This document shows, piece after piece, positions 8,158 to 9,628 of a DNA stretch of 64,000 nt (its first letter is position 1; the number at the start of each line of letters is the position of its first letter). The notes below the pieces were generated by a model. The model had not been told where the DNA came from. It did no database searches and saw only the letters and a program-made list of their open reading frames with translations. Origin of the DNA: Leeuwenhoekiella palythoae (GTDB lineage Bacteria > Bacteroidota > Bacteroidia > Flavobacteriales > Flavobacteriaceae). The translations under genes were made by a program, and so were the position numbers. Location: assembly GCF_900130045.1 (NCBI RefSeq), contig NZ_FQXT01000002.1:310001-374000 (forward strand). Direction: 5' to 3'.

Positions 8158-8661
8158 TTACAGCACGAGTTCGTAGCAGTAAAACGGAAATTCACTTTGC
8201 TTAGGAAAATAGACCGGGTCAAGCTTTTGATAACCCCGTTTAGTATAAAAAATATTGTTCCTCTCATTTTTACTGAAGGTGTCTAGCCTAACGGAAGCAA
8301 AACCATGCTCTCGAGCATAATCTTCTGCAAATTGCATCATTTGCTGTGCGATTCCCTGACCTTGCGCTTCAGGATGAACCGCCAGCCGATGAATGTAGAT
8401 ACAGCGGGCGTCAGCAGGCGTCAGCCAGGTAATTTCCTCATAAATCTCATCTTTCAAAGTGGAAACTACAACAGTACCCAGAATACGCTCTTGCTGCGTG
8501 TAGATGTAAAGTTCGTTGCGTTTAATATCTTCCTCAAAAGCTGCGCGCGACGGGTAGTGTTCATTCCATTGGTAAATACCATTGGCGATCATTGCTTTTG
8601 CACAGGCGGCAGTAACTTGTAAGATTTCATCAACATCTGCAGAAGTAGCGGGTCGTATCAT
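8158..8661 (-). CDS. GNAT family N-acetyltransferase
   Basis: The 167-residue protein has the GNAT fold signature. The acetyl-CoA pyrophosphate loop is QGQGIA (residues 100-105) after the beta-strand IHRLAVHPEA, and the C-terminal motif NIFYTKRGYQKLD completes the domain. GNAT enzymes transfer acetyl groups to amines of small molecules or proteins; the substrate here is unknown. It precedes the MATE gene by 43 bp, and coupling of modification and export is possible but not shown. Confidence 0.85.
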   Translation of the reverse strand: MIRPATSADVDEILQVTAACAKAMIANGIYQWNEHYPSRAAFEEDIKRNELYIYTQQERILGTVVVSTLKDEIYEEITWLTPADARCIYIHRLAVHPEAQGQGIAQQMMQFAEDYAREHGFASVRLDTFSKNERNNIFYTKRGYQKLDPVYFPKQSEFPFYCYELVL

Positions 8662-8732
8662 TTAGGGAGGTTTTTTGCAAAAATGAGGCATTTACGCTGA
8701 ATGTAAAAAGCATCAGCAGCAAAAATGATAAT

Positions 8733-8765
8733 TGGAATGTTTATTAAGGAATTTGGTTATATTTA
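8733..8765 (+). promoter_or_regulatory. Probable tRNA-Ala locus promoter
   Basis: TTG at 8733-8735 and TATATTTA at 8758-8765 with a 22-base spacer approximate the Bacteroidota consensus. The box ends 12 bases before the degenerate 5' tRNA copy, the spacing expected for a tRNA promoter. It now lies about 320 bp upstream of the intact tRNA, with the endonuclease gene in between. Confidence 0.5.
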
Positions 8766-8777
8766 CGCCCTCCAAAT

Positions 8778-8845
8778 GGGGATGTAGCTCAGTTGGCTCC
8801 CCGCCCGAACGTACCTTTTCGGTTCGGGCGGGGAGTGCAAGACTG
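8778..8845 (+). pseudogene. Degenerate 5' half-copy of tRNA-Ala interrupted by a hairpin
   Basis: The first 21 bases (8778-8798) are identical to the 5' end of the intact tRNA-Ala through the D-loop. A 14-bp hairpin follows. After it, GAGTGCAAGACTG (8833-8845) matches tRNA bases 9106-9118 (GAGTGCTTGACTG) at 11 of 13 positions. The copy is therefore a tRNA 5' half whose D-loop holds the hairpin, and it has no 3' half, so it cannot make a functional tRNA. Confidence 0.6.
8797..8835 (+). repeat. GC-rich 14-bp perfect hairpin in the D-loop position
   Basis: CTCCCCGCCCGAAC (8797-8810) pairs perfectly with GTTCGGGCGGGGAG (8822-8835) around an 11-base loop. It is far more GC-rich than the surroundings. 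There is no U-run after it, so it is not a standard terminator. It would form in RNA made from the promoter at 8733. Confidence 0.75.
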
Positions 8846-8853
8846 TATGTAGA

Positions 8854-9093
8854 ATGTATTTTGTATATATTTTAGAGAGTTTAAGCTCTGGAAGAAAGTA
8901 TGTAGGTTTTACCCAAAATTTAGATGCTAGACTTTTAGAACACAATAGAGGAAATGTAACTTCCACTAAGCCTTTCCGGCCTTGGAAGAGAATTTACTCT
9001 GAAGAGCAACCAACCCAAATAGAGGCACGCACGCGTGAGAAATACTTAAAGAGCGCTGCCGGAAGGCGTTGGCGCAAAAAAATGGGGATGTAG
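8854..9093 (+). CDS. GIY-YIG nuclease domain protein, 79 aa
   Basis: This is a minimal UvrC/URI-type GIY-YIG endonuclease. VYI at residues 4-6 and YVG at 16-18 stand for GIY and YIG, R26 (DARLLEHN) is the catalytic arginine, N31 is conserved, and E57 (QIEARTREK) is the likely metal-binding glutamate. A basic tail (GRRWRKKMGM) ends the protein. The domain cuts DNA with one metal ion. The last two codons and the stop (9085-9093) lie inside the acceptor and linker region of the downstream tRNA-Ala, so gene and tRNA physically overlap. Small stand-alone members are common in Bacteroidota; their function is unclear. Confidence 0.85.
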   Translation: MYFVYILESLSSGRKYVGFTQNLDARLLEHNRGNVTSTKPFRPWKRIYSEEQPTQIEARTREKYLKSAAGRRWRKKMGM

Positions 9094-9104
9094 CTCAGTT
9101 GGCT
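9080..9104 (+). repeat. 25-bp direct repeat, second copy (first at 8774-8798)
   Basis: This is identical to 8774-8798. It covers four bases before the tRNA, the acceptor 5' strand, the D-stem and part of the D-loop. The first copy ends where the hairpin begins. Confidence 0.85.
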
Positions 9105-9157
9105 AGAGTGCTTGACTGGCAGTCAAGAGGTCGTGGGTTCGAATCCCATCTTCTCCA
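9084..9157 (+). tRNA. tRNA-Ala (anticodon GGC)
   Basis: The cloverleaf reads: acceptor GGGGATG/CTTCTCC, D-stem GCTC/GAGT, anticodon stem CTTGA/TCAAG with loop CTGGCAG (anticodon GGC), T-stem GTGGG/CCCAT with loop TTCGAAT, and discriminator A at 9157. G3-U70, the alanine identity pair, is present. U6-U67 is a mismatch in the acceptor stem. CCA is not encoded. The first ten bases overlap the end of the GIY-YIG gene. A strong terminator follows. Confidence 0.92.
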
Positions 9158-9163
9158 CAAAAG

Positions 9164-9194
9164 AAAACCTGAAGCAGTTCTGCTTCAGGTTTTT
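9164..9194 (+). terminator. Rho-independent terminator after tRNA-Ala
   Basis: AAAACCTGAAGCA (9164-9176) pairs with TGCTTCAGGTTTT (9181-9193) around GTTC and ends in a T-run, 6 bases after the tRNA 3' end. Confidence 0.9.
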
Positions 9195-9274
9195 GATTTT
9201 ATACGATGTTGATTTACTTTGCGTTATACATTTTGAGCTGGTATTAGCAGCTCGTAAACTAACCTACACGCAAG

Positions 9275-9628
9275 ATGAACCCCAAACCCGTATTAATTTC
9301 CATATTAATTTACTTACCCTCAGTGTTGCTCGCTGTTTTTTATGTTCCAACGGCGCTTGACAAATTGCTTGATCCTAATCAAACAGGGAAAATTGTACAA
9401 AGCAGTGCGGTGATGCTTACCGCAGGAGTTTTTATTCTTACGGGGCTTACCTTATTCTATTATCATAAAACAATGCTGTGGGGCGTAACGATGCTTTCGC
9501 TTTATATGCTTCCGGTTATTGGCATTCACCTGTATAAAGGTAAACCCGCCGAAGTATTAATGCTTATTCTAATGAGTACGCTATTTGCGGCATACCTTAG
9601 AAAGCCGGAAGTGTTTGCGAAGAATTAA
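9275..9628 (+). CDS. Small four-TM membrane protein (DoxX-like)
   Basis: The 117-residue protein has four hydrophobic segments, at about residues 6-26, 42-62, 66-86 and 92-110. FYVPTALDKLLDP near the N terminus resembles the start of DoxX-like proteins, which are small membrane proteins linked to redox or quinone functions. The assignment is tentative. Its stop overlaps the stop of the CLC gene by 4 bases in a convergent arrangement (9625-9628). Confidence 0.6.
   Translation: MNPKPVLISILIYLPSVLLAVFYVPTALDKLLDPNQTGKIVQSSAVMLTAGVFILTGLTLFYYHKTMLWGVTMLSLYMLPVIGIHLYKGKPAEVLMLILMSTLFAAYLRKPEVFAKN

Follow-up and report, generated by a model that had tools for sequence, protein, structure and literature searches.

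The window, a stretch of 64,000 nucleotides from the genome of Leeuwenhoekiella palythoae (family Flavobacteriaceae), contains an intact tRNA-Ala(GGC) gene at 9084..9158 (Rfam RF00005, 66.5 bits; plus strand, as for all features below unless stated otherwise), which is preceded by a partial copy of itself. An exact direct repeat of 25 bp, made up of 4 bp from upstream of the tRNA and tRNA nucleotides 1-21, occurs at 8774..8798 and 9080..9104 with a start-to-start distance of 306 bp, and its left copy forms a 5' remnant of the tRNA gene. Between this remnant and the tRNA lies an open reading frame (ORF) of 79 aa (8854..9093), which matches the GIY-YIG nuclease domain PF01541 (E 4e-16). Repeat and ORF had been noticed in a preliminary description of this DNA and were found as described there, but two features had been missed. 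The upstream tRNA copy extends beyond the 25 bp but is split by a palindrome of 33 bp at the D-loop position (8800..8832), after which tRNA sequence (GAGTGC...GACTG) resumes at 8833..8845, where comparison with the intact gene identified GAGTGC as the 3' strand of the D stem, followed by a degraded anticodon-arm stretch, AAGACTG. At the homologous loci L007 and L008, the remnant reaches as far as TTGACTGG(C/T)A in the anticodon arm. The ORF, in turn, has no stop codon ahead of the tRNA and terminates at a TAG that forms nucleotides 8-10 of the intact gene.

The palindrome, designated PAL-2, has perfect 14-bp arms (8797-8810/8822-8835) and differs by one base from the version that is identical in three relatives. 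When folded as single-stranded DNA, the palindrome stretch of the window reached a z-score of -4.4 with 0 of 200 shuffles as good, and the corresponding values for relatives were -3.8 (0/200; L008) and -2.6 (5/200; L006). A sequence presumably of the Bacteroidetes TTTG/TAnnTTTG promoter type (TTTGGTTATATTTAC, 8752..8766) now precedes the remnant, and the tRNA gene is followed by a hairpin and T-rich sequence that probably acts as a terminator (9164..9193, inverted repeat I3). In a relative without the element (G004), the tRNA is preceded by the same sequence, TTTTGGTTATATTTACGCCC, in agreement with the earlier suggestion that the original tRNA promoter lies before the upstream copy. The arrangement recurs in three further Leeuwenhoekiella genomes at the same tRNA as well as beside many other tRNA genes, which indicates that it did not arise by chance.

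To compare this site within the genus, 13 Leeuwenhoekiella genomes were analyzed, each of which gave exactly one match to tRNA-Ala(GGC) at E 1e-15. A GNAT gene lies near the tRNA in 12 of the 13 genomes, which identifies the locus as orthologous. The element is present in four genomes (G000, which is that of the window, G003, G005, and G007), and the site is clean in the other nine. Relatives with an empty site, as had been predicted, thus exist, and an arrangement fixed in all relatives as an ancestral state is contradicted. Empty and occupied genomes sharing the sequence before the tRNA were available as G002/G007 and as G006 and G010/G005, while G004 (empty) shares a shorter stretch with G000 and G003 (occupied). 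In the occupied genomes, the shared sequence runs into the remnant, which shows that the promoter-like host sequence stays before the remnant, with the complete tRNA downstream of the nuclease gene; this supports the earlier proposal, made on the basis of the window, of an element at tRNA-Ala that keeps the tRNA intact. In a pattern of four occupied sites among 13, precise losses and gains look alike.

The ORFs of G003 and G007 differ with a dN of 0.12 and a dS of 1.7 and keep the catalytic columns; the ORF is under purifying selection. No base of the 33-bp palindrome differs among G003, G005, and G007 (33/33 between G003 and G007). At a dS of 1.7, this identity points to a far stronger constraint on the palindrome, or a more recent origin, than applies to the neighboring silent sites. 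In G005, the nuclease copy is split into two frames. Dispersal of PAL-2 within Leeuwenhoekiella was considered and rejected, as the sequence was found with up to 3 mismatches only at the nuclease locus, in four of the 13 genomes. PAL-1, a second palindrome, was found with up to 1 mismatch in three of the 13.

The GIY-YIG domain is the sole Pfam domain of the protein and corresponds to the catalytic part. Among 90 aligned rows, Y5 is conserved in 89, Y16 and R26 in 90 each, and E62 in 88, and we take these columns to be the catalytic ones. The conserved residues place the protein in the GIY-YIG superfamily, and the element is assigned to this superfamily only. A group I intron was rejected as an explanation, as no intron family was found at E <=1 (Rfam, 8600-9400) and the adjoining tRNA is complete; the NCBIfam model grpIintron_endo scored 17.4 bits, far below its cut-off of 56.05. 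Cargo of a phage or plasmid was likewise rejected, with no phage or plasmid record matching the nuclease at E 1e-5. The 306-bp unit contains one further ORF of at least 60 aa, which lies on the minus strand, encodes 67 aa, and is too short for an integrase.

To learn more about the distribution of such loci, we searched 299 genomes forming an even draw from a larger group of the same bacterial family, of which 75 contained matches to the window protein at E <=1e-10. The resulting 91 family loci comprise 3 first seen in the genus search and 28 and 60 from the family search, with 15 of the weakest places left out. Duplicates were dropped before (L011-L017, L046, L047, and L051) or after (L067, identical to L038) locus classification, as was L078, which gave no match in the profile search. 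A second query with a tRNA-Leu-type nuclease (E 1e-14) added only two further places. Loci were classified as type A when an intact tRNA started within 150 bp downstream, and as type B, the mirror form, when a tRNA ended within 400 bp upstream. A same-strand tRNA adjoins 82 of the 91 family loci (71 type A and 11 type B). The earlier suspicion of a little-noticed family is supported. A nuclease gene without an adjoining tRNA, named beforehand as an observation that would speak against the proposal, occurs at the remaining nine loci. The chance of finding a tRNA in a random same-strand stretch of 550 bp is estimated at well under 1%, given ~45 tRNAs per 4 Mb, and none of the 168 rows had its closest tRNA, within 400 bp, on the opposite strand. 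Among 36 loci from the genome_contigs set, 12 were type A, 9 were type B, and 15 had no adjoining tRNA; the type A hosts among them (MAGs) include Uhrbacteria (tRNA-Glu), Saganbacteria (tRNA-Pro), Bacteroidales (tRNA-Pro), and Marinoscillum (tRNA-Leu). A gene of the same kind was also seen directly downstream of the tmRNA gene in a Patescibacteria MAG (L066); this is adjacency only, with no tmRNA remnant, and the tmRNA is not claimed as a target.

When compared with 60 shuffles, a tRNA remnant on the far side of the nuclease gene outscored every one of them in 77 of 86 type A and 8 of 22 type B rows. The remaining 14 type B rows gave no remnant above shuffles, and the weak ones mostly concern tRNA-Asn and tRNA-Gln. 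Type A remnants derive from Ala-GGC, Arg-TCG, Arg-ACG, Leu-CAA/TAA, Met-CAT, Ser-TGA, Asp-GTC, Pro-TGG/GGG, and Glu-TTC. For type A loci with a continuous remnant of nucleotides 1-22 and an alternative allele in the set, the best match was the tRNA allele of the own host in 33 of 36 cases, with two ties and one exception (L043). The remnants have thus been made from, or kept homogeneous with, the tRNA of their host. At L142, a further exception, remnant and intact copy of tRNA-Leu(CAA) differ in the acceptor stem, possibly through transfer or a swapped tRNA. The overlap of the nuclease gene with the tRNA recurs as well. The position of the stop codon was determined in 80 type A rows whose tRNA is no more than 60 bp from the end of the domain: 51 rows have it within the intact tRNA, 4 across the tRNA start, and 25 ahead of the tRNA, 18 of these at tRNA-Leu. 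Stops inside the tRNA fall on nucleotide 8 in 18 of 20 Ala rows and on nucleotide 21 in 14 of 25 Arg rows.

Where a type B locus has a clear remnant, an intact tRNA with its terminator comes first, followed by the nuclease gene, a 3' tRNA remnant, and a second terminator, and the palindrome is located in the anticodon or T arm of the remnant. The genome of the window itself contains a mirror form at tRNA-Phe(GAA) (L004, G000:C6:335206-335436), in which the 3' remnant carries the palindrome CCCCGAAGCATCGGGG. Judged by eye, L004, L055, and L145 each have two near-identical terminators, and L044, L095, L109, and L144 two different ones. Different terminators are what one expects if the element brought its own tRNA 3' half and terminator. 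We infer that a small circle carrying a 5' or a 3' tRNA part, inserted by a single crossover, gives rise to both types.

Tandem arrays of the gene were observed at 17 of 134 loci, with a spacing of mostly 290-390 bp and at most eight units. The longest (L099, G185:C34:6988-9763) consists of eight GIY-YIG units of ~364 bp with fragments resembling tRNA 3' ends and TCCGCC..GGCGGA palindromes; no intact tRNA was seen in the examined stretch, which is possibly an array that outlived its tRNA. Units without a nuclease gene were also found. At the tRNA-Asn loci L160, L180, L258, and L140, the sequence TCCTCCTTA-PAL-1-(G/A)CTCAGAACTGAGC stands upstream of the intact tRNA with no GIY-YIG gene in between, and similar units occur at tRNA-Ile (L169) and, in two copies on the 3' side, at tRNA-Thr (L159). 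These look like non-autonomous versions of the element. L258 and L140 have a GIY-YIG gene downstream of the tRNA-Asn as well. Strong palindromes of the kind GAAGTAGAGC..GCTCACTTC lie between the tRNA-Asn and the GIY-YIG gene in L125, L137, L140, L141, L143, L146, and L258. The tRNA-Ile(GAT) of L169 has remnants on both sides, with a PAL-1-bearing 5' remnant upstream and a repeated 3' end downstream.

Analysis of the palindromes revealed two main families, PAL-2 (CCCGCCCG...CGGGCGGG) and PAL-1 (CCTGCCTGCCGGCAGGCAGG and variants). In type A loci, a palindrome interrupts the remnant at tRNA nucleotide 22 (Ala, Arg, Met, and Asp) or 24 (Leu), and/or at about nucleotides 9-11. A one-sided AACG stands beside the stem in 32 of 42 distinct PAL-2 sites among the loci analyzed. 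PAL-2 was found in either orientation at a given tRNA position (e.g., L027, L038, and L052 versus L018, L031, and L032) and therefore behaves as a unit of its own. At L022, a second palindrome is nested in the PAL-2 loop within a remnant of tRNA-Arg(ACG).

The association of palindromes with nucleases was traced on a protein tree of 93 rows that leaves out inner array copies, rows with a domain stretch below 60 aa, and weak type B rows. With few alignment columns (75), 25 of its 90 inner branches were strongly supported. Palindrome labels were assigned by regular expressions, which were revised twice, the first version also giving five changes (67 tips). In the final version, the palindrome family changes five times across 75 labeled tips, the minimum for four families being three; the 15 of 90 tree loci that carry none of the four were left out of this count. 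At least 24 changes were needed in 200 free shuffles and at least 12 in 200 shuffles within tRNA types, and the tRNA isotype changes 14 times on the same tree. Palindrome and nuclease are thus inherited together and switch tRNA more often than they switch each other, although physical linkage alone, within ~100 bp, could produce such a pattern. Two separate parts of the tree contain elements at Arg-TCG, with PAL-1 in the one and PAL-2 in the other, and G003 possesses both nuclease-palindrome pairs at different tRNAs.

Both palindromes also occur as bare, dispersed copies. The exact 20-bp PAL-1 was found in 56 of the 299 genomes, with 1-19 copies where present, and the PAL-2 pattern in 27, with a maximum of 28 copies in G171, whose single listed nuclease locus carries the loop variant of at least one listed dispersed copy. 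Reversed patterns, searched as controls in the same 299 genomes, gave no genome for PAL-1 and three genomes with one site each for PAL-2. For the following comparison, copies lying 300 bp or less from a nuclease ORF were removed, and genomes were assigned to nuclease clades by the best protein match at >=38% identity among the retrieved loci. Dispersed PAL-1 is present in 21 of the 38 genomes that have a PAL-1-clade nuclease and in 31 of the 261 that lack one (odds ratio 9.2, p 8e-9), and dispersed PAL-2 in 10 of 25 with and 13 of 274 without a PAL-2-clade nuclease (odds ratio 13.4, p 1.5e-6), whereas the cross pairs gave odds ratios of 3.0 (p 0.02) and 3.5 (p 0.016), host phylogeny being ignored throughout. 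Genomes without a detected matching clade hold 97 of the 190 dispersed PAL-1 copies and 29 of the 73 PAL-2 copies. Six palindrome-rich genomes of this kind were inspected, five of which contain other small GIY-YIG genes; the sixth, G106, lacks small GIY-YIG genes and carries PAL-1 in 18 copies. Among 30 loci (of 40 places) in the six genomes, only L258 (tRNA-Asn) has both a tRNA and a palindrome close to the gene, and L275 has a tRNA alone.

For one dispersed PAL-1 copy, which lies in a repeat of ~110 bp, a counterpart without the palindrome was found. The copy of the repeat in G003 (L147/L241) and the copy beside the same gene in G000 (L242) differ by exactly the 20-bp PAL-1, with no target duplication; they lie in opposite orientation and are hence not strictly orthologous. 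The intergenic repeat, AAGCCTnGAnTTT..TTGGTTCTTT or similar, seen at L147 and L150 (G003) and L242 (G000), is itself a landing place of PAL-1 in Leeuwenhoekiella.

A nuclease gene and a hairpin between a broken and a whole tRNA thus look like an unrecognized kind of minimal mobile element. Mobility is supported by the presence and absence of the element at orthologous tRNA loci and by the tandem arrays. The preliminary description was right about an element at tRNA-Ala, but the pairing of palindromes with nuclease clades, the other tRNA targets, the mirror form, the arrays, the copies without an ORF, and the bare palindromes had escaped it. As the best explanation, which we are modestly inclined to accept, we hypothesize that a GIY-YIG nuclease is paired with a hairpin in the manner of REP/RAYT systems and seated at tRNA genes. 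The unit of ~300-390 bp would consist of a small GIY-YIG gene and its cognate G+C-rich palindrome, embedded in a partial tRNA copy. The nuclease may read its own palindrome as a hairpin, either single-stranded or cruciform, and nick there, and the nick could initiate recombination between the tRNA repeats, leading to excision, single-crossover insertion of a small circle, and amplification into arrays. Acting in trans, it might also move bare palindromes, which would be by-products or passengers. Through its own 5' or 3' tRNA part, the unit would leave one complete tRNA after each insertion and so be nearly harmless. In type A loci, the nuclease would be expressed from the tRNA promoter. As 5' ends of tRNAs are processed by RNase P, processing may remove the stop codon from the nuclease message wherever the stop lies inside the tRNA, and thereby limit output as a built-in brake.

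The element had originally been called homing-type, and a free-standing homing endonuclease would cut the empty tRNA allele, which is then repaired from the occupied one, the palindrome serving only to destroy the leftover target in the remnant. The GIY-YIG fold, the strict position at the tRNA, the patchy presence at one orthologous locus, and the recurring places of the palindromes in the remnant (~nt 9-11 or 22/24, anticodon or T loop) are all consistent with this explanation. A homing insert, however, interrupts the cleavage site and makes the occupied allele immune (PMC1564403). The designation is not supported in this classic form, in which the insert destroys the site of its enzyme, as a complete tRNA gene remains here. 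Type A and type B loci are defined by an intact tRNA next to the element, and any site contained in this tRNA is preserved. With such a site, the enzyme would also cut the occupied allele and there would be no homing immunity; the scheme may work if the cleavage site spans the 5' boundary of the tRNA. Homing also leaves the dispersed bare palindromes and their match with nuclease clades unexplained, and Pfam finds the catalytic domain alone in the 79 aa. We therefore regard this explanation as unlikely.

We find it less probable still that the arrangement is passive, with tRNA genes that duplicate often, a GIY-YIG gene that rides along, and an unrelated enzyme spreading palindromes that collect in useless remnants. 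Palindromes in genomes lacking the respective nuclease clade, such as G106, would fit, as would the palindrome-bearing remnants without an ORF beside tRNA-Asn, tRNA-Ile, and tRNA-Thr. A passive origin does not, however, account for the fact that 75 of 90 tree loci can be assigned to one of four palindrome families, near-constant within each nuclease clade and at recurring tRNA positions, for a palindrome conserved at 33/33 while the silent sites of the gene are near saturation, or for an association with the matched clade that exceeds the cross association. A domesticated host function, with nuclease and tRNA-like leader acting in tRNA or stress regulation and inherited vertically with losses, would agree with purifying selection on the ORF, the overlap of its stop codon with the tRNA, and a divergence between G000 and G007 (77% for the whole nuclease protein) resembling that of the GNAT neighbor (71% over 101 residues), but is highly improbable given its absence from nine of 13 congeners with clean sites, the broken copy in G005, the switches between tRNA types, and the tandem arrays.

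If the preferred reading of a tRNA-seated nuclease-hairpin pair is true, the element would be the smallest self-sufficient tRNA-seated mobile element known to us. It would add an enzyme class to palindrome mobilization, which to our knowledge has so far rested on tyrosine transposases, and provide a source for the dispersed palindromes of Bacteroidota, for which we know of no explanation. The nuclease-palindrome pairs are short, and each gives a direct prediction for purified protein and oligonucleotides. A bolder form of the preferred reading is a second invention of a REP/RAYT-like system with GIY-YIG chemistry, in which each clade has its own hairpin, tRNA genes act as a safe nursery, the tRNA 5' or 3' half is the recombination site, the stop codon in the tRNA imposes self-limitation, and palindromes are sown across the family; we hold it tentatively, with doubt slightly outweighing belief. 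Among the matches listed in a search of titles and the start of abstracts, which covered the open-licence literature and left subscription journals and bioRxiv outside, none described GIY-YIG genes with tRNA remnants and palindromes. We rate the element family as categorically new, with precedents for each of its ingredients.

The element resembles free-standing GIY-YIG homing endonucleases of the Seg/I-Tev kind in its GIY-YIG catalytic domain, patchy distribution, and conserved target gene. It differs from them in that Pfam detects no separate DNA-binding domain, the occupied allele keeps an intact tRNA, and the palindrome also occurs free. Islands, satellites, and prophages that integrate at tRNA genes are flanked by direct repeats of a tRNA part, leave the tRNA whole, and form tandem arrays. 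The element shares with them the direct repeat of a tRNA part at both ends, the restored tRNA, and the arrays, but has no integrase, measures only ~0.3 kb, uses mainly the tRNA 5' half, and carries a palindrome inside the remnant. By sequence, the nearest solved structures are distant ones of the UPF0213/SLX1 type, 7wme (SLX1) and 1zg2 and 1ywl (UPF0213), at E 0.003-0.012; we know of no association of such proteins with tRNAs or palindromes.

REP/RAYT systems combine a small ORF with a short imperfect palindrome, bare copies of which are dispersed in correlation with the gene and number 37-427 in Stenotrophomonas (PMC2817692). The present element contains a GIY-YIG nuclease instead of an HUH tyrosine transposase related to IS200/IS605 and is seated at tRNA genes with a tRNA remnant. 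Its copy numbers are lower, at 0-28 per genome for the two patterns searched. In place of two inverted flanking REPs, the window has one palindrome 5' of the ORF and the tRNA directly after it; relatives have one to three palindromes on the remnant side, and L140 has palindromes on both sides of the gene. The GTAG-type head of REPs is absent, the palindrome being preceded by GGCTC in the window and by GCTA in three relatives. The correlation of gene and palindrome was found here as presence or absence of dispersed copies, with many exceptions and with host phylogeny ignored. Like REP/RAYT, the element thus joins a small ORF to a short palindrome, the same palindrome is dispersed in bare form, and the presence of the gene correlates with that of its cognate palindrome.
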